From assembly GCA_030068145.1 (NCBI GenBank), contig JAPJBO010000423.1, positions 1 to 64,000 of the forward strand: a stretch of 64,000 bases of DNA. Reading direction: 5' to 3'. The position numbers and the translations under genes were made by a program. Of the stretch, positions 2,801-58,980 are shown piece after piece (position 1 is the first letter of the stretch; the number at the start of each line of letters is the position of its first letter). The notes beneath the pieces are model-generated. The model did no database searches and had not been told where the DNA came from. It saw only the letters and a list, made by a program, of their open reading frames with translations. Source of the stretch: Diplonema papillatum (lineage: Eukaryota > Euglenozoa > Diplonemea > Diplonemida > Diplonemidae).

Positions 2801-3221
2801 CGGTCGATAATGATTTTTCGGGGTTTGTTGGTTTTCAGGTCTAATGTGCCCTTTACTTTAACTGCTGCCTCTAGTCTCGCTGGGCGCCGGTCTTTACCGG
2901 CGCAAATGTACTTTTTGGGACAACCACTAGAAGCACTGGGTTTCCGAAGATCAACGCGAAAAAACGCCGAAGGCGTACCTTGGCGTACCGTACCGGACCC
3001 CCCATTCTTCAAACTTTCACAAAATCCGTGAGGTGGGCCTCGAATTCTTCTAAGTACAAACGCTGGTGTCCTGGACAAGCCACCCCCCCCAGGAAACATA
3101 AAACCCAAAACCCAGACGGGCCAGATTCAGTTTCCACCCCTGCCCCCCCCCCCCCCCCCCCCCTGGAGCTGTTTTGAACGAATTCCATCCCATCCTCGAC
3201 TGCACCCCCCCCCCTTACGTA

Positions 3222-37527: not shown

Positions 37528-38712
37528 GTTACTGGTAACGTTGCTTGCTAATTTTAGACTACCACTGCTAACCGACTTTGACCGAGTTTGGCCAAAACCT
37601 CGCCAGGTCAAGCTCGGCCCCTCTTTAATGCTGGTAACGTTGCTTGCTAATTTTAGACTACCACTGCTGACCGACTTTGACCGAGTTTGGCCAAAACCTC
37701 GCCAGGTCAAGCTCGGCCCCTCTTTAATGCTGGTAACGTTGCTTGCTAATTTTAGACTACCACTGCTGACCGACTTTGACCGAGTTTGGCCAAAACCTCG
37801 CCAGGTCAAGCTCGGCCCCTCTTTAATGCTGGTAACGTTGCTTGCTAATTTTAGACTACCACTGCTGACCGACTTTGACCGAGTTTGGCCAAAACCTCGC
37901 CAGGTCAAGCTCGGCCCCTCTTTAATGCTGGTAACGTTGCTTGCTAATTTTAGACTACCACTGCTGACCGACTTTGACCGAGTTTGGCCAAAACCTCGCC
38001 AGGTCAAGCTCGGCCCCTCTTTAATGCTGGTAACGTTGCTTGCTAATTTTAGACTACCACTGCTGACCGACTTTGACCGAGTTTGGCCAAAACCTCGCCA
38101 GGTCAAGCTCGGCCCCTCTTTAATGCTGGTAACGTTGCTTGCTAATTTTAGACTACCACTGCTGACCGACTTTGACCGAGTTTGGCCAAAACCTCGCCAG
38201 GTCAAGCTCGGCCCCTCTTTAATGCTGGTAACGTTGCTTGCTAATTTTAGACTACCACTGCTGACCGACTTTGACCGAGTTTGGCCAAAACCTCGCCAGG
38301 TCAAGCTCGGCCCCTCTTTAATGCTGGTAACGTTGCTTGCTAATTTTAGACTACCACTGCTGACCGACTTTGACCGAGTTTGGCCAAAACCTCGCCAGGT
38401 CAAGCTCGGCCCCTCTTTAATGCTGGTAACGTTGCTTGCTAATTTTAGACTACCACTGCTGACCGACTTTGACCGAGTTTGGCCAAAACCTCGCCAGGTC
38501 AAGCTCGGCCCCTCTTTAATGCTGGTAACGTTGCTTGCTAATTTTAGACTACCACTGCTGACCGACTTTGACCGAGTTTGGCCAAAACCTCGCCAGGTCA
38601 AGCTCGGCCCCTCTTTAATGCTGGTAACGTTGCTTGCTAATTTTAGACTACCACTGCTGACCGACTTTGACCGAGTTTGGCCAAAACCTCGCCAGGTCAA
38701 GCTCGGGCCCTG
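37528..38712. repeat. 99-bp satellite, 12 tandem units
   Basis: Units are nearly identical (GCTGGTAACGTTGCTTGC, CTAATTTTAGACTACCACTG, ACTTTGACCGAGTTTGGCC, TCAAGCTCGGCCCCTCTTTA). Because 99 is divisible by three, the array is open in one plus-strand and one minus-strand frame (over 400 codons each), but the translations are pure repeat and no start context or domain supports a gene. Confidence 0.95.
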
Positions 38713-41121: not shown

Positions 41122-41430
41122 TGGCCGTTATATAACGTTATATAACGTTATATAACGTTATTCCCGGAGTTATTTGTTACCCCCCCCCTAAATCCAGAAA
41201 AACCGTTATTGACCGTTATAAAACCGTTATTTGCCATTTTTGGTCGAAAAATAACGTTATTTGACCGTTATAACGTTATATAACGTTATAATAACGGTAT
41301 AATAACGTTATATAACGTTATAATAACGTTATATAACGTTATAATAACGTTATATAACGTTATATAACGTTATATAACGTTATATAACGTTATATAACGT
41401 TATATAACGTTATATAACGTTATATAACGG
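41122..41430. repeat. TATAACGT palindromic array (left)
   Basis: Many copies of ATAACGTTAT, itself a palindrome, in tandem, broken at 41160-41230 by a C run and non-repeat sequence. The array could extrude cruciforms. Confidence 0.95.
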
Positions 41431-41457
41431 TTTTTTACCAGTCCATGGGAGGTCACA

Positions 41458-41790
41458 CTGTCCTCCAGATTTTGGTCATTTTTGGCCATTTTTGCCACAT
41501 TTTCCAGATTTTGGCCAATTTTGGTTATTTTTGCCAATTTTTCCAGATTTTGGTCAATGTTGACCAGTTTTGCCGTGTTTTCCAGATTTTGGCCCATTTT
41601 GGCCGTTTTTACCGATTTGGCCAGGATTGGCCATTTTTGCCATGTTTTTCAAAAATTTGGCTATTTTTGCCGATTTTTCCAGGTTTTGGTCATTTTTGGC
41701 CAGTTTTGCCATGTTTTCCAGACTTTGCCCATTTTGGCCGTTTTTGCCGATTTTTCCAGGGTTTTGGTCATTTATGCCCTGCCCCTCACC
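41458..41790 (+). repeat. TTTTGG(C/T)CA minisatellite, left arm
   Basis: About 15 degenerate units of the CAGATTTTGGTCATTTTTGG type. Same family as the array at 9535-10015. Confidence 0.9.
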
Positions 41791-41980
41791 AGAGCTATTC
41801 TTGTCTGAGTTTCTTAAACCCGCACAAGCTCGAACAGGCAGTCCGTGCGCGGAAAAAAAAAAAGGTCGAAAGACACCAATCTGTACGCCCATTCGGGATC
41901 GTCGGAAACACAAAAACACGTGTACCGCCCCACCCGCTTCGATTTCAGCCACACTAGTCTTTCCAAAGGGAATATCGACT

Positions 41981-42331
41981 ATGCCTGCGAAAAGCTCCCC
42001 GAAGGTCCAGCCGAAGCCGAAGGCTCAACCTAAAGCTCAGCCGAAAGCTCAGCCGAAGACCCCAGGTACACAGCGCAAACGGCCTCGCGCCGAAAGTACG
42101 GATAGCAACAGCAGCAGCAGCAGCGCCTCGGTTGCAAAGGCGCGACGCGGAAGGAAGAAGGTGGCGGAAACGCTGCGCGTCGAGGCCTTGTCCCGCGACC
42201 TGGCATTGACTGGCCCCAGCGTTCTCCCTGTCACGAAACCACCAAGTAAGAGCCCGGAACAACGATTCATCGACCGGATCAAGAAAACCGACCCCGGGCT
42301 GGCTGGGTTCTACGGGAAGCGCCAGCTGTGA
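41981..42331 (+). CDS. small basic protein, cargo of the 2.2-kb element
   Basis: A 116-residue protein with ATG at 41981. Residues 5-30 are KPKAQ/PKAQ repeats, followed by RKRPRAESTD (nuclear-localisation-like), a Ser run, KARRGRKK, and a C-terminal KSPEQRFIDRIKKTDPGLAGFY. It has no catalytic domain. The last segment resembles PGLDLAGFYKRHL in the membrane protein at 30180, and the N-terminal composition resembles the second protein of the CACTA-like element. The role is unknown; it could be a DNA-binding protein of the element or a captured host gene fragment. The strong basic bias suggests DNA or RNA binding. Confidence 0.6.
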   Translation: MPAKSSPKVQPKPKAQPKAQPKAQPKTPGTQRKRPRAESTDSNSSSSSASVAKARRGRKKVAETLRVEALSRDLALTGPSVLPVTKPPSKSPEQRFIDRIKKTDPGLAGFYGKRQL

Positions 42332-42764
42332 CTGCTCGACTTTGCATGTCTCGTGCTCATCATGCACCCATATTTGGTACTGGGACCTTGTCTGACTGGC
42401 ATAGTACGCAACGGTCTGCCGAGTGGACAAGCTTGGACAAGTTGGACTCCAGTGGCCGGATCATGCTGGTGACATCTGCTGCCTCACGAAGGACACTGCA
42501 AACGACCGTTACGGGCCACCGACTGAGGGACACGCGCCGGAAACCCAAAACTGCAGACATCCACATCCCAAGAACAACATCGCACAGTGAAAGAGTCATG
42601 TGAATCCGGAAGGATCGCGTTTGTCGCGCTTGGGTGGAAGTCCGCAAGAAAATAAGTAAAAGAGAAAAAGCTCTGGGGAGGGGCTATACGGACCCCTGAG
42701 GACCGGTTACTACGAATTCTTTTCGGACCAGGGTTTGTTTCCGAACAGTTTTTGTGACCGGGAT

Positions 42765-43155
42765 CCAAAAATCGGCAAAAGTCTGGAAAAATTGGCAAAA
42801 ATGGCCGAAATTGACCAAAATCTGGAAAATCGGGAAATCTGGAAAAATCGGAAAAAATGGCCGAAATTGACTGATCTGGATAAATCGGCCAGAGTGGCCA
42901 AAATCTCAAAATTGTCCAAAATCTTGAAAAATCGGCAAAAATGGCCGAAATCTGGAAAAATCGGCAAAAATTGCCGAAATCTGGAAAAAATCGGCAAAAT
43001 GGCCAAAACCTGAAAAAATCGGCAAAAGTCTGGAAAAATTGGCTAAGATTGACCAAAATCTGGCAAAAATGGCCAAAATCGGAAAAAATGGCCGAAATGG
43101 ACCAAAATGAGGAAAAAATGACAAAAATCTGGAAACATGGCCAAAATCGGAAAAA
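42765..43155 (-). repeat. TTTTGGCCA minisatellite, right arm (inverted)
   Basis: Units such as AAAATCGGCAAAAATGGCC are the reverse complement family of the left arm, so the element has hairpin-like symmetry outside its gene. Confidence 0.9.
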
Positions 43156-43202
43156 TTCTAAAAACCGTTATTTGCGTTATTTTTTCCGTTATTTTGCGTT
43201 TT

Positions 43203-43280
43203 CGACCGTTATATAACGTTATATAACGTTATATAACGTTATCACCGTTATAACGTTATATAACGTTATATAACGTTATC
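43203..43280. repeat. TATAACGT palindromic array (right)
   Basis: Shorter counterpart of the left array, directly inside the right terminal repeat. Confidence 0.92.
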
Positions 43281-43301
43281 AACCGGCCATCTATGATTCA
43301 T

Positions 43302-51470: not shown

Positions 51471-51668
51471 CAGGTGGTTAGACAGATCGCGCATCCGTCC
51501 TCTTCGTGCTCGCTCTCACATCAGTTCCGCTAAAGCGCTCGCCGGACAAAACGAGAATTACTCCTGTTTGTGTCGAATTGCGAAGCCCACGAAGGCTTTG
51601 GTCGGATTTAGCTGACATAAAACTCCAGATAATATCGAGAAAAAATATTTCGATATCGAAAAAAGGTT
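51471..51668. other. spacer with a short AT hairpin
   Basis: ATATCGAGAAAAAATATTTCGATAT type palindrome at about 51632-51657, directly outside the left end of the recombinase element. Confidence 0.5.
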
Positions 51669-53249
51669 TTTACTGCCTGTCACCTGACTTTTCTGCATCC
51701 TCGAGAGCTACTTTTCTTGCACGCATAACTACTTTTCTTGCACGCATAACTACTTTTCTTGCACGCAAAGCAGTTTTGGTTTCCAGGTGGATTCGTGGGC
51801 AATCAGTGGGCAACCCGGGTGGATTCGTGGGCAACCAGGTGGATTCTGGGGCAACCCAGGTGCATTCGTGGACAACCCGGGTGCATTCGCGTGAAGATTA
51901 CAGGCCAAGAACAGAAACGGAGAAGGTTGAAGCGGTATTATGATCTGGCTCAAGTGAGCTAAATGAAGAAGAATTTGAAAGGCAGGGAGTCTGGCGGGGA
52001 GACCGGCTTATTCGCTGCAGGAATCGGAGGGGTCAGCGACCTCTTCTGCCAAGGAAACCTGGCTGGCTTCCGAAGTTCAGCGTGCATTGCGAACCGACCG
52101 TGATGTTGTACACAACAGGGGCTTGGACTGAAGCTGGGGCTGTTGTTGGTACTGTGGGTGGCACACAAGCAGTAGATTGGTTTGTCAGAGCGATGGATTG
52201 GTGATTACCACCAAGCAGAGTACCAGCAATCTGAGTTGCGGCCTTGGCAGTCTGGTCGATGTACTCTTGGGCAGTTTTGGTGCTCTGCCAACCGAAGAAT
52301 GCTTGGAGCTCAGGGATAGTTTTGCCACCCTCACTTAGATAACATGCAGCCGATCGGCGCAACGCATGACCTGTGAACCGAGAGGTGTCTTCGACACCCA
52401 GACGCACAGCCAACTTTCGTGGAACCTCTCTCATGAGGTTGACCCCCAGAGGCGCCTTCTTGAAACCTTTGCTGATTCCTTTCGCAGATGTGCTCCAGTT
52501 CACAGCGCAAAACAGAGGATCTTCCGGTTTGAGCAACGTCTTGACTGCTGACAGGTAGTCGGAAAGGCGTCCTGAAGGCCCGGCAGGCACGAGAAACCTG
52601 GTCGTCTTGGGGGCGGTTTTCTGCTTCCCCCTCTTCACAACCACCCAGTAGCCACCAAAGCCAGAATCGCACTCTTCGATGTCGCGGAGACGCAGATCAT
52701 GGGCCTCTCCCATTCTTAGGCCGCCGAAGTAGACGACTGTGGCCAAGGCAAGGTCGCGAATCCAGGAATGATCGTCAGCAGCAGCAGGCGTCGAAAATAT
52801 TGTCGTCAGGTCACTCTGCTTGAATGGCTCCGCCTTCGTCGGAGCAGCGCCCTCTCTCTCGTACTTCTTGAGCTGGTCCTGCAGCCTTGGCCAGTCTTTG
52901 ATAGAAATGCTGTGTCGGAGGAGGAGGATCTTCCCCCGATCATGCTGTAGCAAGACCACAAGCTCTTAGGCTTGTATGCCCGCTTGTCGGAGATGCTTCA
53001 AGAAGAGACATATGTCATCTTCAGTAGGCCGTGGGTCCTTGGCTCTCACCCGTCTCTTCGAGCGCGTGAACGCGACAAGCTCGTTGTATTTTCGTTCGTA
53101 CTTGTCCCGACTTGCTGAGGCGAGGATATCCTCACGAGCCAGTTGGGCTTCGTCTGCGACATCTTTCTTAGCCTTCGGCATCCCCCCCCCCGTTACCCCC
53201 TGTGTGTAGCTCTCTCGGACGCATAAAAGTCAGGTGATGCGGCAGTAAA
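51669..53249 (-). mobile_element. tyrosine-recombinase (Crypton-like) element with TIRs
   Basis: Ends are imperfect inverted repeats of about 45 bp: TTTACTGCC at 51669, then CACCTGACTTTT and GAGAGCTAC; the right end, read on the minus strand from 53249, is TTTACTGCC, ATCACCTGACTTTT, GAGAGCTAC. It carries one gene, a tyrosine recombinase. Near the left end are three direct copies of CTTTTCTTGCACGCATAACT-like sequence. Cryptons classically lack terminal inverted repeats, so the combination is unusual. Confidence 0.65.
52033..53181 (-). pseudogene. tyrosine recombinase with one in-frame stop
   Basis: The frame opens at ATG 53181 (MPKAKKDVADEAQ) and is read for 71 codons to TAA at 52966-52968, then continues open in the same frame for 311 codons to 52033. 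The first part (SASRDKYERKYNELVAF, DICLFLKHLRQ) is the helical core-binding domain. The second part has the full catalytic set: Arg in YFGGLRMGEAHDL, Lys in the VVKRGKQKTAP hairpin, H-x-x-R in FTGHALRRSAACYL, Trp in FFGWQSTKTAQ, and Tyr in EYID. Everything except the TAA is intact, so the stop is either a recent lesion, a readthrough site, or a sequencing error. The family is Crypton-like or DIRS-type recombinase; without a reverse transcriptase nearby, Crypton-like is preferred. Confidence 0.75.
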
Positions 53250-53386
53250 GCAATCTTCTTACCTCGAGCAGTTGTTTTCTTGCACTCGGGTTTTCCAGAT
53301 TGCCACTCGAGCCCTACGGGCTCTCGTGGCAATCTGGAAAACCCTCGTGCAAGAAAACAACTTTTCTCTCGGTGAATAAATAGCTA
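53243..53386. repeat. hairpin block 1
   Basis: Block from CAGTAAAGCAATCTTCTTACC to CTCTCGGTGAATAAATAGCT. Its core, 53271-53361, is a hairpin with two 44-nt arms (40 of 44 pairs) and a 3-nt loop (TAC). The mismatches are two TC/GA pairs at symmetric spacing. The arms contain GTTTTCTTGCAC and GGTTTTCCAGATTGCCAC. Confidence 0.95.
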
Positions 53387-53906
53387 TTACTGCCGGGCAA
53401 TTTACTTTTCTGCATCACCGTGAGCTACTTTTCTACACTCCAAGCTTACTTTTCTTACACTCCAAGCTACTTTTCTTGCACTCCAAGCTACTTTTCTTAC
53501 ACTCCAAGCTACTTTTCTTACACTCCAAGCAAAACTGGTTTCCAGTGGTAAATAGCCTGTCATACTGACATCTTAAGGGGGAAAAAGCGGGCAATCCGCG
53601 AAGAATCTACCTCAACGAGAGCATTTTTTGCCACACCATGCTCCCCGCCTGCAGACCTGCCGGGCCCGCAAACATGGACCAAATGCGAAGAATGAGTGAT
53701 AAGTTTGACAATCGGAAGAGAAAACAGGCCAAGTCCACGAGGTTGCTACTTGAAATTGGAAAGCACATCTGTACATCAACCTGGCAAGCAGATTTGCAAA
53801 AGCTAGGAGTCAAACCTGCACCTACTACGATGTTGTCGACACAGCGTTGGCTGGCCGTGTAGCTCACTCGTGGTGCAGAAAAGTAAGTTGCCCCTGGCAG
53901 TAAAGC
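53386..53906. mobile_element. short non-autonomous relative between the hairpins
   Basis: Bounded by inverted ends related to those of the recombinase element: ATTACTGCCGGGCAA then TTTACTTTTCTGCATCAC on the left, and the inverted TTTACTGCCAGGGGCAAC then TTACTTTTCTGCACCAC on the right. Five direct copies of CTACTTTTCTTACACTCCAAG lie inside the left end. The body has no recombinase. Confidence 0.65.
53638..53862 (+). CDS. possible small ORF in the short element
   Basis: 74 codons, MLPACRPAGPANMDQMRRMS start, then a basic helical stretch (DNRKRKQAKSTRLLLEIGK). No homology recognised. An ORF on the other strand (53607-53867) overlaps it. It may not be translated. Confidence 0.2.
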   Translation: MLPACRPAGPANMDQMRRMSDKFDNRKRKQAKSTRLLLEIGKHICTSTWQADLQKLGVKPAPTTMLSTQRWLAV

Positions 53907-54042
53907 TATCTTCTTACCTCGAGAACGTTGTTTTCTTGCACTCGGGTTTTCCAGATTGCCACTCGAGCCCTACGGGCTCTCGTGGCAATCTGGAAAACCC
54001 TCGTGCAAGAAAACAACTTTTCTCTCGGTGAATAAATAGCTA
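53898..54042. repeat. hairpin block 2
   Basis: A second copy of hairpin block 1, 656 bp downstream. The hairpin 53927-54017 is identical in sequence to the first across both arms and loop; only the flanks differ slightly (CTCGAGAACG instead of CTCGAGCA before the hairpin). Confidence 0.95.
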
Positions 54043-54414
54043 TTTCCGACCGATTGATATCTGACCGCTGCTGGGATATCGACATAACCATGTTTATGTG
54101 GACGGGTCGAAGGGGCGAAATCACATGTTTGACACAGTTCTGGGCACCTCCAGGCTGGTTCTTATGCTCTGGCCTTAAACCACCCTTACTGAGGATATGA
54201 GAAAACAGCCATTCGTTCCGCTTTCTGGCCCCTCCCAACCCCCTAATGCGTATTAGCTGCCCGGAGACTCTAAAGTCCCGGATTCTCAAGCGAAATTTAA
54301 CTCTGAAAACCTTGAAACTAGGACTCCCGGGGAGGCCCTACCTAGCAGGAGAGACGCACATTCCAGCGTATACTTGGGTGTCGATTCGACGTAAAAGACG
54401 TCTATCCACACAAA
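54043..54414. other. upstream region of the large GH16 gene
   Basis: No gene. The ATG is preceded by an ATCCACACAAA leader similar in place to the ACACAAAACG leader of the 35-kb GH16 gene. No convincing TATA box. Confidence 0.4.
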
Positions 54415-57400
54415 ATGAACCAAGCCCGAAAAAGCCATGCAGCGTTTTTCTTCTGCCTTGCAGCGTGGGTGGCTGACAGTTTGGCCGCATGGGAGCTGGT
54501 TTGGAGCGACGAGTTCAGCGGCACGGCAATCAACACTTCCAATTGGAATCACGAAGTGAACTGCGACGGCGGCGGCAACCAAGAGCAGCAATGTTACACA
54601 TTGAGCACTGATAACTCGTTTGTGTCGAATGGCTTGCTGACGATCAAGGCAATGCCTGCTACGGGACAGTCACTTCCGTATAGCTCGGCTAGACTTAACT
54701 CGAAGAACAACGGAGACTGGACGTACGGCAAGTTCGAAGCAAGAATGAAACTTCCATCCGGACAAGGGTCGTGGCCCGCGTTTTGGATGCTGCCGACTGA
54801 CAACGAATACGGAGCCTGGCCTCTGTCGGGGGAGATCGACATCATGGAGGCAGTGAACTTGAAAGTCGGCGGGGAAAGAAATGTCCTCGGAACGTTGCAC
54901 TACGGAAACCCGTGGCCCAACAACAAGCACAGTGGCGCGACATACTTGCTGCCGAACGGGGCGAATCCTGCTGATGATTTCCACACGTACACTGTAGAGT
55001 GGGAGGAAGGAGAGATTCGTTGGTACGTGGATGGCGCGCACTTCCAGACGCAGCAAAGATCCACAGCCAACTACGACAGCAACGGGAACCCTGTGAGCCT
55101 GAAGCACCGTGGGTGGTTCCACCAGGTTAACGGGAAGCCGACATACGCGGATTCGCCGTACGACAAAAAGTTCCACTTGTTGCTAAACTTAGCTGTCGGC
55201 GGAGACTGGCCGAGCAACGCTAACGACGGAGGTATCGACGCTTCCGCCTTTGCGAATGGTCAGTTCATGTACGTTGACTACGTGCGTGTTTATCAGTGCA
55301 ACCCCTCCACATCGACCGGAAGAGGGTGTGCAACGGTAGCAAGCAACTACCTGTCAACTACGTTAGTGAGCGGAGCTGCTCCCGACTTGACGTCGGATTC
55401 CGTGGTCGTATCGCCGTCGTCTTCGCCACCTCCTGCGCCGCCTTCACCTAGTGGAACGACGTGCAATGATCAATGGAACAATCAAGCGTGCGAGAACCCT
55501 CAATTGTGCTACACGTGTGGTGCTCGCATTGAGTACTTGATGACCCAAGGCTACACAGAAGCCTTTTCAAAGTCTACCGTCGGAGATGATTTTCCCGCTG
55601 AGTGTGGTGCTTGTAGAAATTCGAACCCGCCGCCGTCATCACCTGCAACACCAGCACCACCTTCGCCGCCTTCATCACCTGCAACAGCAGCACCGCCTTC
55701 ATCACCTGCAACACCAGCACCACCTGCACCACCGCCACCGTCATCTCCTAGTGGAACGACATGCGATGATCAATGGAACAACCAAGCGTGCGAGAACCCG
55801 CAATTGTGCTACACGTGTGGTGCTCGCATTGAGTACTTGATGACCCAAGGCTACACAGAAGCCTTTTCAAGGTCTACTATAGGAGATGATTTTCCCGCTG
55901 AGTGTGGCGCTTGTAAAAATTTGAACCCGCCGCCGTCATCACCTGCAACACCAGCACCACCTGCGCCACCGACGCCACCGACGCCACCGTCACCTCCTAG
56001 TGGAACGACATGCGATGATCAATGGAACAACCAAGCGTGTGAGAACCCGCAATTGTGCTACACGTGTGGTGCTCGCATCGAGTACTTGATGACCCAAGGC
56101 TACACAGAAGCCTTTTCAAAGTCTACCATAGGAGATGATTTCCCCGCTGAGTGTGGTGCTTGTAGATCTTCGAACCCGCCGCCGCCAGCACCTGCAACAG
56201 CAGCACCGTCGTCTGCACCTGCAACAGCAGCACCGTCGTCAGCACCTGCAACAGCAACACCGTCGTCAGCACCTGCAACAGCAGAACCGTCGTCAGCACT
56301 TGCAACAGCAACACCGTCGTCAGCACCTGCAACAGCAACACCGTCGTCAGCACCTGCAACAGCAACACCGTCGTCTGCACCTGCAACAGCAGCACCGTCG
56401 TCTGCACCTGCAACAGCAGAACCGTCGTCAGCACCTGCAACAGCAACACCGTCGTCAGCACCTGCAACAGCAGAACCGTCGTCAGCACTTGCAACAGCAA
56501 CACCGTCGTCAGCACCTGCAACAGCAGCACCGTCGTCTGCACCTGCAACAACAACACCGTCGTCTGCACCTGCAACAGCAGCACCGTCGTCAGCACCTGC
56601 AACAGCAACACCGTCGTCAGCACCTGCAACAGCAACACCGTCGTCTGCACCTGCAACAGCAGCACCGTCGTCTGCACCTGCAACAGCAGAACCGTCGTCA
56701 GCACTTGCAACAGCAACACCGTCGTCAGCACCTGCAACAGCAGAACCGTCGTCAGCACTTGCAACAGCAACACCGTCGTCAGCACCTGCAACAGCAGCAC
56801 CGTCGTCTGCACCTGCAACAACAACACCGTCGTCTGCACCTGCAACAGCAGCACCGTCGTCAGCACCTGCAACAGCAGCACCGTCGTCTGCACCTGCAAC
56901 AACAACACCGTCGTCTGCACCTGCAACAGCAGCACCGTCGTCTGCACCTGCAACAACAACACCGTCGTCAGCACCTGCAACAGCAGCACCGTCGTCAGCA
57001 CCTGCAACAGCAGCACCGTCGTCTGCACCTGCAACAACAACACCGTCGTCTGCACCTGCAACAGCAGCACCGTCGTCTGCACCTGCAACAACAACACCGT
57101 CGTCAGCACCTGCAACAGCAGCACCGTCGTCAGCACCTGCAACAGCAACACCGTCGTCTGCACCTGCAACAACAACACCGTCGTCAGCACCTGCAACAGC
57201 AGCACCGTCGTCTGCACCTGCAACAACAACACCGTCGTCAGCACCTGCAACAGCAGCACCGTCGTCAGCACCTGCAACAGCAACACCGTCGTCTGCACCT
57301 GCAACAGCAGCACCGTCGTCAGCACCTGCAACAGCAGCACCGTCGTCAGCACCTGCAACAGCAACACCGTCGTCAGCACCTGCAACAGCAACACCGTCGT

Positions 57401-58980
57401 CAGCACCTGCAACAGCAGCACCGTCGTCTGCACCTGCAACAGCAGCACCGTCGTCAGCACCTGCAACAGCAACACCGTCGTCAGCACCTGCAACAGCAGC
57501 ACCGTCGTCAGCACCTGCAACAGCAACACCGTCGTCAGCACCTGCAACAGCAACACCGTCGTCTGCACCTGCAACAGCAACACCGTCGTCAGCACCTGCA
57601 ACAGCAGCACCGTCGTCTGCACCTGCAACAGCAACACCGTCGTCAGCACCTGCAACAGCAACACCGTCGTCAGCACCTGCAACAGCAGCACCGTCGTCAG
57701 CACCTGCAACAGCAGCACCGTCGTCTGCACCTGCAACAGCAGCACCGTCGTCAGCACCTGCAACAGCAGCACCGTCGTCTGCACCTGCAACAACAGCACC
57801 GTCGTCAGCACCTGCAACAGCAGAACCGTCGTCAGCACCTGCAACAGCAGCACCGTCGTCTGCACCTGCAACAACAGCACCGTCGTCAGCACCTGCAACA
57901 GCAGAACCGTCGGCATCACCTGCACCACCAGTACTTCCACCGCCGTCGCCTGCAACGCCGACACCATCTTCAACCCCGACGCCAGCTTCACCGTCGCTTC
58001 CAGCTGAGTGGAAGGTGGTTTGGAGTGACGAGTTCAGCGGCACATCGATCGACACTGACAAGTGGACTCACGAAGTGAACTGCGATGGCGGTCGCCTCTA
58101 CGCGCAACAGTGTTATACATCGAGCACTAACAACTCGTTTGTGTCAAACGGCGTGCTGACGATCAAGGCCATGCCTGCTACGGGGCAGTCACTTCCGTAT
58201 AGCTCGGCTAGACTTCACTCGAAGCACAAGGGTGACTGGACCTACGGCAAATTCGAAGCGAGAATGAAGCTTCCTTTTGGACAAGGGTCGTGGCCCGCGT
58301 TTTGGATGCTGCCGACTGACAACGAATACGGAGCCTGGCCTCTGTCGGGGGAGATCGACATCATGGAGGCAGTGAACTTGAAAGTTGGCGGGGAAGGAAA
58401 TCTCCACGGAACGTTGAGCTATGGAAACCCGTGGCCCCACAACAAGTACAGTGGCTCGACGTACTTGCTGCCGAATGATGAGAATCCTGCTGATGATTAC
58501 CACGTGTACAGCATCGAGTGGGAGGAGGGAGAGATTCGCTGGTACGTGGATGGCACGCACTACCAGACACAGCGGCGGTCGACAGTCACATCCGGCAACG
58601 GGAACTCTTTGAGCCTGAAGCACCGTGGGTGGTTTCACGAGGTTGACGGGAAGCCGACGTACGCGAATTCTCCGTTCAACAAGAAGTTCCACTTGTTGCT
58701 GAGCTTCGCCGTCGGCGGAGAGTGGGCGAGCAACGCCCACGACAGGGGGATCGACGCTACTGCGTTCGAGAATGGCCAGTTCATGTCCGTTGACTACGTG
58801 CGTGTTTACCAGTGCCCGACCGACCCCGTGACTGGAAAAGGTTGTGCAACCGTGGCAAGCGTAGTTGACGGCACCGCCCCCGATGTCTTTGCACCCCCGT
58901 CGAGCGCTGCCGCGCAGCCGGTCTTCCACCTTCTCCCAGCCCTCGCTGCAGCTCTTCTCATTGTGTTGTCCTGGTTCTGA
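54415..58980 (+). CDS. twin-domain GH16 glucanase with giant Ser/Pro/Ala/Thr linker
   Basis: A 1521-residue protein. Signal peptide at residues 1-25 (AAFFFCLAAWVADSLA). First GH16 domain at about 25-295 with GEIDIMEAV (Glu140, Asp142, Glu145). Three Cys modules follow at about 350, 450 and 533 (C-x-DQWNNQACENPQLCYTCG type, each ending CGAC). Residues about 585-1170 are a linker of some 70 PSSAPAT(A/T) octads, probably heavily O-glycosylated. Second GH16 domain at about 1198-1470 (Glu1313, Asp1315, Glu1318). The C-terminus ends in a hydrophobic segment (LLPALAAALLIVLSWF) with no basic tail, as in GPI-anchor signals. I infer a cell-surface enzyme acting on beta-1,3-type glucans. Both catalytic triads are intact. 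Confidence 0.9.
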   Translation: MNQARKSHAAFFFCLAAWVADSLAAWELVWSDEFSGTAINTSNWNHEVNCDGGGNQEQQCYTLSTDNSFVSNGLLTIKAMPATGQSLPYSSARLNSKNNGDWTYGKFEARMKLPSGQGSWPAFWMLPTDNEYGAWPLSGEIDIMEAVNLKVGGERNVLGTLHYGNPWPNNKHSGATYLLPNGANPADDFHTYTVEWEEGEIRWYVDGAHFQTQQRSTANYDSNGNPVSLKHRGWFHQVNGKPTYADSPYDKKFHLLLNLAVGGDWPSNANDGGIDASAFANGQFMYVDYVRVYQCNPSTSTGRGCATVASNYLSTTLVSGAAPDLTSDSVVVSPSSSPPPAPPSPSGTTCNDQWNNQACENPQLCYTCGARIEYLMTQGYTEAFSKSTVGDDFPAECGACRNSNPPPSSPATPAPPSPPSSPATAAPPSSPATPAPPAPPPPSSPSGTTCDDQWNNQACENPQLCYTCGARIEYLMTQGYTEAFSRSTIGDDFPAECGACKNLNPPPSSPATPAPPAPPTPPTPPSPPSGTTCDDQWNNQACENPQLCYTCGARIEYLMTQGYTEAFSKSTIGDDFPAECGACRSSNPPPPAPATAAPSSAPATAAPSSAPATATPSSAPATAEPSSALATATPSSAPATATPSSAPATATPSSAPATAAPSSAPATAEPSSAPATATPSSAPATAEPSSALATATPSSAPATAAPSSAPATTTPSSAPATAAPSSAPATATPSSAPATATPSSAPATAAPSSAPATAEPSSALATATPSSAPATAEPSSALATATPSSAPATAAPSSAPATTTPSSAPATAAPSSAPATAAPSSAPATTTPSSAPATAAPSSAPATTTPSSAPATAAPSSAPATAAPSSAPATTTPSSAPATAAPSSAPATTTPSSAPATAAPSSAPATATPSSAPATTTPSSAPATAAPSSAPATTTPSSAPATAAPSSAPATATPSSAPATAAPSSAPATAAPSSAPATATPSSAPATATPSSAPATAAPSSAPATAAPSSAPATATPSSAPATAAPSSAPATATPSSAPATATPSSAPATATPSSAPATAAPSSAPATATPSSAPATATPSSAPATAAPSSAPATAAPSSAPATAAPSSAPATAAPSSAPATTAPSSAPATAEPSSAPATAAPSSAPATTAPSSAPATAEPSASPAPPVLPPPSPATPTPSSTPTPASPSLPAEWKVVWSDEFSGTSIDTDKWTHEVNCDGGRLYAQQCYTSSTNNSFVSNGVLTIKAMPATGQSLPYSSARLHSKHKGDWTYGKFEARMKLPFGQGSWPAFWMLPTDNEYGAWPLSGEIDIMEAVNLKVGGEGNLHGTLSYGNPWPHNKYSGSTYLLPNDENPADDYHVYSIEWEEGEIRWYVDGTHYQTQRRSTVTSGNGNSLSLKHRGWFHEVDGKPTYANSPFNKKFHLLLSFAVGGEWASNAHDRGIDATAFENGQFMSVDYVRVYQCPTDPVTGKGCATVASVVDGTAPDVFAPPSSAAAQPVFHLLPALAAALLIVLSWF
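56200..57915 (+). repeat. 24-bp coding minisatellite (PSSAPATA octads)
   Basis: About 70 units of CCGTCGTCAGCACCTGCAAC plus a four-base end, differing mainly at a few synonymous and A/T/E-coding positions. The period is a multiple of three, so other frames on both strands also stay open for over 600 codons; these are not genes. Confidence 0.95.

Follow-up and report, generated by a model that had tools for sequence, protein, structure and literature searches.

The 64,000-nucleotide stretch of DNA analyzed here (the window; contig C423, JAPJBO010000423.1, of the 271-Mb, 2910-contig assembly of Diplonema papillatum) carries in tandem two copies of an element family that we designate family A: unit 1, ≈1.7 kb long with a damaged tyrosine recombinase (YR) gene, and unit 2, ≈0.65 kb long and non-autonomous. 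We interpret family A and its relatives, with a probability of about 80%, as Crypton-like YR transposons that combine inverted repeats with a one-sided, palindromic and strand-marked tail. In the autonomous plan, a single YR gene lies between terminal inverted repeats (TIRs), and the palindromic tail lies beyond the right TIR, at one end only, closing in AATAAATAGCTAT or a variant of it. The observations comprise fixed ends, an A-run/N5/TTT target, insertion without duplication, tandem joints, non-autonomous copies, one-sided hairpins in several divergent YR families, and a covarying, marked stem. Searches of the openly licensed literature (Repbase and supplements were outside the search) returned no description of such an end architecture, in which a YR element has both TIRs and a tail formed by a hairpin, in keeping with an earlier, sequence-only reading of the window that knew of no eukaryotic system with this layout; such elements may already sit unremarked in a repeat library.

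Two tandem units and the fixed right end of family A

Unit 1 (51672–53387, + strand, 1716 bp) extends from ACTGCC to GCTAT, with borders assigned from copies that have differing flanks, and is abutted on the left by its target site (51659–51671, +), an A-run, a spacer and TTT, recognized in the sequence and in the consensus of 37 flanks described below. Its left TIR (51672–51711, +) is matched in inverted orientation by the inner right TIR (53206–53248, +), with 51680–51711 and 53206–53237 sharing 88% identity, and an equivalent repeat stands beside 46 of 48 family-A hairpins. Between them lie direct repeats with a period of 21 bp (CTACTTTTCTTGCACGCATAA; 51708–51767, +; Tandem Repeats Finder) and the open part of the YR gene (52036–52959, −; 308 aa), which matches Pfam PF00589 (Phage_integrase, E=1.5e-13), so that the proposal of a YR gene inside a TIR-bounded element holds. 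Arm-to-arm alignment defines the palindromic tail (53247–53387, +) as an imperfect inverted repeat with target-like outer bases and a hairpin as its core (53270–53362, +, from fold and sequence), which is interrupted by TC-opposite-TC (TC/TC) mismatches at 53286–53287 with 53345–53346 and at 53307–53308 with 53324–53325 (+). The unit closes in AATAAATAGCTAT (53375–53387, +), and a single T (53388, +) separates it from the next copy in the joint GCTAT-T-ACTGCC.

Unit 2 (53389–54043, +, 655 bp) has the same ends as unit 1 and is inserted at its right end. It contains direct repeats of the same 21-bp period (53423–53530, +; Tandem Repeats Finder), an inner right TIR (53870–53903, +; 92% identity between 53395–53418 and inverted 53870–53893), a second hairpin core (53924–54020, +, from repeat comparison) and the right end AATAAATAGCTAT (54031–54043, +). 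The related TIRs and the identical hairpin previously attributed to this short unit are thus both present, the two hairpin copies having 118 identical nucleotides in common (53271–53388 and 53927–54044). Its description as a mobilized passenger stands insofar as unit 2 is a non-autonomous relative with the same ends; passenger genes were not seen, and the open reading frames (ORFs) of the window include no long one in unit 2. Exact copies of the 11-bp motif TTTTCTT(G/A)CAC occur three times in the repeats of unit 1 and once in each hairpin arm, as had been counted, and four times rather than five in unit 2, where the first repeat, near 53429, is degenerate; the entire window holds 11.

To place this hairpin in the genome, a 33-nt core was searched with ≤3 mismatches, which gave 145 matches in the assembly and none for a reversed control, a difference that sets its recurrence apart from chance. 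The family-A sample comprises the window and 40 fetched loci (here numbered with the prefix L), 34 of which cover every exact core match outside the window and six of which have one mismatch; counted with ≤4 mismatches, these sequences harbor 48 hairpins. An inverted copy of the left end precedes 46/48 (not L025; L032 has a two-mismatch form), the end motif TAAATAGCTAT or a one-base variant follows 44/48 (not L020, one of L022, L025 and L028), and a left end is found ≤2.6 kb upstream of 42/48 (not L017, L025, L028, L030, L037 and L040). Immediately beyond ACTGCC at the left and GCTAT at the right, the flanks differ between copies. The hairpin is no separate module; it forms the constant right end of a family of mobile elements.

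These counts bear directly on the reading that the hairpin is an unrelated miniature inverted-repeat transposable element (MITE) inserted twice here, or a separate module beside the YR element. Its compact inverted-repeat appearance and 145 occurrences would suit a MITE; against this stand the inverted end beside 46 and the left end upstream of 42 of the 48 hairpins, genomic flanks that start only after AATAGCTAT, and other YR families that have hairpins of their own. The 48-hairpin count refutes this reading for family A, and we consider it hardly credible overall; the genome search suggested by the sequence-only reading therefore found the hairpin neither mostly alone nor as part of an unrelated MITE. 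The 14-mer end AATAAATAGCTATT, which is the right end with the following T, occurs 458 times in the genome compared with five for a reversed control, and among contigs C1 to C144 it is present in exact form ≤1.5 kb from the YR match in 9 of 23 YR-matching contigs, where ≈0.1 would be expected by chance (our own arithmetic).

Target sites, tandem joints and insertion without duplication

A left-flank consensus was derived from 37 distinct flanks, tandem joints excluded (one, from the minus strand of L041, probably represents an inner right repeat missed by the filter). Ahead of ACTGCC, A accounts for 89% at position −10, 81% at −9 and 54–59% at −13 to −11, followed by a free spacer and then by T at 95–100% at −3 to −1. 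The target is A-run/N5/TTT and is used without target duplication. The right end of the element, GAATAAATAGCTATT, carries an A-run and TT spaced as in the target; the A-run/spacer/TT(T) of the left junction and that of the right end have equal spacing, match imperfectly and contain no exact 4–6 bp repeat.

Unoccupied targets were sought for 33 copies in the fetched sequence, and 8/33 gave a match. Four clean empty sites (L015, L031, L043 and L047), of the kind that the sequence-only reading had advised looking for, join the flanks without duplication and differ by one T added at the left or right junction. In the more distant family of L053, a host repeat is present twice, once with the element in it and once empty, again with no duplication (target, AAAACTTAGTTT). 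The fixed-length target site duplication sought for a DDE/TIR transposon or a MITE is not found; at the four clean sites, a single T within a T-tract is all that is gained. ATAGCTATTACTGCC, the exact tandem joint with its one T, occurs 12 times in the genome (control, 0) and directly follows 5/48 family-A hairpins, and the T added at empty sites is the T found in these joints. The ability of a copy to occupy the exact right end of a second one gives rise to tandem arrays. In L044 (2353–3154), L035 (near 2919–3101) and L016 (2428–3094), elements are inserted within related elements' hairpin ends or stand back to back with them (AATAGCTATTTATT-type joints), which looks as though the palindromic end could be targeted from either direction.

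Duplication-free insertion together with one-T joints carries the signature of conservative site-specific recombination and not of a DDE transposase, and the tandem joint has the sequence that a circle joint would have. The YR would join the left junction (A-run N5 TTT|ACTGCC) to the right junction (AATAAATAGCTAT|T), giving a circle with the joint GCTAT-T-ACTGCC, which would then recombine at a new A-run/N5/TTT site or at the target-shaped right end of a copy already in place. Accessory YR binding could be provided by the hairpin arms and the ACTTTTCTTGCAC repeats. The hairpins had been proposed as the recombination or excision sites themselves. They do stand at the recombining right end, 46 of 48 with an inverted end beside them, but the crossover would fall outside the stem, at the palindrome's outer base (GCTAT|T).

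A one-sided hairpin near the 3′ end, a T-rich insertion site, absence of duplication and tandem copies could also be accommodated by a Helitron-like element with a Rep/Helicase encoded elsewhere and the YR as a passenger, since a 3′ hairpin, a T-rich insertion site and no target duplication are Helitron traits. By definition, Helitrons have TC...CTRR ends and a Rep/Helicase. The elements described here possess inverted repeats and ACTGCC...GCTAT ends instead, the YR goes with the hairpins of several families, and the YR copies that were read lack a Rep/Helicase ORF (no genome-wide Helitron search was made); we give this alternative little credence.

Divergent recombinases, one-sided hairpins and the strand mark

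A search of the genome for the YR gave 117 matches, and nine further loci were read, comprising family B (L049–L051), a relic (L058) and five more distant loci (L052–L056). An alignment of seven YRs reveals invariant R, K, H, R and Y, with the six relatives sharing 22–57% identity with the window YR (57% for family B and 22–31% for the more divergent families). Pfam Phage_integrase is recovered in all seven, with L054 just under the cut-off (26.3 versus 27.1 bits); intact YRs are 362–405 aa long, and a lone YR ORF is the only recognizable enzyme in L051, L053, L054 and L055. A profile of the family YRs aligns with Tre/Cre over most of the chain (1.1e-11 to 5.8e-9; wild-type Cre, 5.2e-10), with XerC-like proteins (7.7e-8) and with IntI4 (3.6e-5), which establishes the enzyme class but not the clade; a single-sequence AlphaFold model of the window YR was unusable (mean predicted local distance difference test score, pLDDT, 33.6). 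The C-termini of the YRs of L051–L056 and the window mostly show a short strand-like VxYNIxV/F...G..LNF stretch behind a proline-rich linker. Searches of viral contigs for relatives returned only one phage-type integrase (L057 and L065, which are one contig). The DIRS/Ngaro trait of a reverse transcriptase beside the YR is absent from the elements with clear ends, which are ≈1.6–2 kb long and hold one YR ORF only. Six equal-scoring open YR matches each were noted for the L052 family (C204, C643, C728, C844, C956 and C1837) and the L054 family (C125, C209, C430, C626, C640 and C1053), which suggests recent activity.

A long hairpin is found at one side of the YR gene in family B, L053, L054 and L055 and is degenerate in L056, and the hairpins of the families at 22–31% identity are unalignable. 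Inverted ends were computed for L053 (30 nt, 90%) and L054 (38 nt, 84%) and identified by eye for family B. In one respect the sequence-only reading has thus become stronger, as one-sided, strand-marked hairpins recur across divergent recombinases. Inversion of the TIR-flanked segment by the YR, an idea prompted by the opposite gene directions in families A and B, is not supported in simple form: in the copies of both families that were read, the left side keeps the direct repeats.

Folded as a single strand, 53270–53362 yields −46.9 kcal/mol (top) and −47.7 kcal/mol (bottom), which 0/200 shuffles equal for either strand. In 17 aligned hairpins of families A, B and C picked for diversity, both sides have changed in 13/39 stem pairs and 98% of cells pair, a result that 0/500 shuffles reach. 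The inner TC/TC mark is intact in 17/17; single-base mismatches also occur, in single copies. Six further 14-mer ends, taken in list order and away from family-A hairpins among the matches listed, include two with an intact hairpin and both marks (L061 and L063), one with a rearranged tip and the outer mark kept (L064), and three that are degenerate or truncated (L059, L060 and L062).

A hairpin scan of 334,448 bases, covering the window and L009–L056, loci that had been selected for a YR gene or a family-A hairpin, identified 27 hairpins besides the 48 of family A. TC/TC two-base mismatches are present in 11 of the 13 non-A hairpins with arms ≥40 nt, and those of L036 and L047 lack them, the former being an array of tandem repeats and the latter an unrelated inverted repeat; by hand count, TC/TC makes up 22 of the 23 two-base mismatch runs in those 13 hairpins, the exception being in L051. 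Seven of these hairpins happened to lie in flanks (L012, L031, L035, L038, L043, L044 and L046). With TC on top, an A-rich AGCTAT- or GCTTATT-type end lies downstream in 12/12 hairpins (including the shorter one of L038); that is, the mark is on the strand leading into the end. The marked hairpins form about five mutually unalignable groups (A/B/C; L012; L031/L053; L043/L046/L054; L055), which sets the independent sample at about five.

Strand-specific marks of this kind hint at recombination of a folded single strand. The CGAG-bearing strand folds slightly better in the cores of 4/4 families, by 0.4–1.2 kcal/mol, and tandem G·A mismatches of CGAG form are unusually stable in DNA. We nonetheless put at roughly even odds that the palindrome of this same transposon acts only as a duplex, through arm-type YR sites or a bend, with TC/TC arising from a one-directional CTCG motif. 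YRs usually act on duplex DNA, TTTTCTTGCAC recurs in both arms of the hairpin and in the direct repeats, whose 21-bp period is like that of helically phased protein sites, and the two strands fold almost equally well, those 0.4–1.2 kcal/mol being all that separates them in the cores. Duplex action by itself leaves unexplained why TC/TC on one strand is the only regular break in the arms, in five unalignable groups, and how a conservative recombinase multiplies its element. Folding of one strand during recombination is speculative; were it to take place, the one-sided mismatches might let the YR pick one strand of the folded hairpin, leading to replicative movement.

Several observations weigh against the interpretation of these elements as YR transposons with TIRs and a marked tail. 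The window YR gene is broken, its N-terminal part (ATG near 53181) being interrupted by a shifted stretch and a stop, and 14 of the 23 YR-matching contigs have no exact 14-mer end near the match. The empty site of L011 reads as +1 or 0 T depending on the choice of repeat unit and that of L012 as +2; the diverged counterpart of L015 (L037) shows +2 T, and the counterparts of L022 and L035 are not comparable. The TIRs of L055 and L056 are not established, and L052 has no TIR or hairpin in the stretch read. The outer TC/TC mark is intact in 13/17 and lost in 4/17 aligned hairpins (three paired, one CC). The circle, excision and YR binding are our inferences. Finally, gene direction relative to the hairpin is not fixed, being away from it in family A and L055 and toward it in family B, L053, L054 and L056.

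The latter arrangement, with AATAAA behind the hairpin in family A, L053, L055 and others, would fit a hairpin that is a terminator, poly(A) signal or small-RNA source with no part in recombination. Such a role sits poorly with genes that read away from the hairpin in family A and L055, with a family B end, CAAAAAATAGC, that lacks AATAAA, and with the motif itself forming the insertion boundary, its A-run and TT having target spacing; we regard it as unlikely.

Elsewhere in the window, a large open frame (54415–58977, +) begins with a glycosyl hydrolase family 16 domain (4.6e-41) followed by cysteine-rich repeats, and includes ≈65 copies of a 27-bp repeat at 56179–57931. A 99-bp tandem repeat (37532–38711; 11.9 copies, 99% match) lies within an ORF whose weak VMAP-M20 match may stem from the repeat. 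Dense AT-rich arrays of TTTTGGCCATTTTTGCC and CGTTATATAA types occupy 41251–43285, and one array type is also found in L036 as a hairpin with 99-nt arms and no TC/TC marks.

Relation to known systems

Among known elements, Cryptons (CryptonF/S/A/I) resemble the present ones in enzyme and mode of insertion: as described in the cited passages of Kojima and Jurka 2011 (PMC3212892), they are eukaryotic, can encode a YR alone, make no target duplication, have short target-like repeats at both ends and are proposed to move through a circular intermediate, and most CryptonS share TATGG termini. The same passages state that Cryptons lack TIRs and long direct repeats and mention no hairpin tail, whereas TIRs (88% and 92% in the window units, 90% in L053 and 84% in L054) and a tail are present here; because the stated lack of TIRs does not apply, we term these elements Crypton-like and not Cryptons. 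MarCry (with Mariner) does have TIRs and Tec a DDE enzyme, and the movement of both is ascribed there to the DDE transposase (PMC3212892). For Ectocarpus, the words Crypton and hairpin are both absent from the main text describing a curated transposon library (PMC12477816).

Integron attC cassettes, to which the sequence-only reading had appealed, resemble these elements in having a YR, in placing a single imperfect palindrome at one end of each unit, in interrupting its stem in a strand-specific way and in units that can follow one another in tandem (PMC2727003, in the parts cited). In attC the interruptions are single extrahelical bases and an unpaired spacer, which choose the strand, and integrons have a separate integrase platform, attI and passenger-gene cassettes (PMC2727003); here the interruptions are two-base TC/TC mismatches, and autonomous copies encode a YR themselves. 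No platform was seen in 41 sequences (the window and 40 loci, with no genome-wide search made for one), nor were passenger genes seen, and every copy is a transposon bounded by two ends of its own, so that a strict integron cassette system, and with it the cassette-like module as first conceived, is set aside. The earlier observation was right and its reading half right.

Strand-biased circularizing integrative elements of Vibrio (SE), in the cited portions of PMC9345347, are likewise YR elements joined end to end without target duplication, with a model in which one strand is copied and circularized while the donor stays in place; they are bacterial and 7 kb long and carry a pair of YR genes along with two more core genes, and those portions do not mention a hairpin tail. 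The endogenous phaeoviruses of Ectocarpus resemble the present elements in eukaryote-borne YR integration, short attP/attB homology and inverted and direct repeats near the ends, and differ in being giant-virus genomes with a CC core, whose palindrome is an internal telomere-resolution site and not a crossover tail (PMC13236599, as far as cited).

Only tentatively, and as a doubtful extension of the transposon interpretation, do we suggest a eukaryotic YR superfamily that recombines a folded single strand, in which the marked one-sided hairpin (TC/TC; GA/GA on the other strand) would be the counterpart of integron attC, with replicative movement and cassette-like arrays. The enzyme of IS200/IS605, the bacterial elements considered last, is an HUH-type TnpA. 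These elements, too, have terminal hairpins important for transposition and make no target duplication (PMC3627910, in the sections cited); they are bacterial and use another enzyme, whereas here a Cre/Xer-type YR is combined with TIRs. According to a rule stated in that source in 2013, transposons that use tyrosine or serine recombinases are without TIRs and depend instead on hairpins at their ends, as in IS200/605, or on short direct repeats, as in Crypton (PMC3627910).

Against this rule, the family described here joins inverted repeats to short repeats resembling the target and to a long hairpin, and does so in at least two divergent lineages. The loose A-run/N5/TTT target and enzymes of 362–405 aa could serve as tools. 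Conservative recombination leaves the multiplication of such elements to be explained: plain excision by a YR does not in itself raise the copy number, whereas a one-strand reaction could, and replicative movement of this sort would account for the hundreds of copies. A strand-marked hairpin at the recombining end offers a candidate answer, single-strand recombination in a eukaryote.

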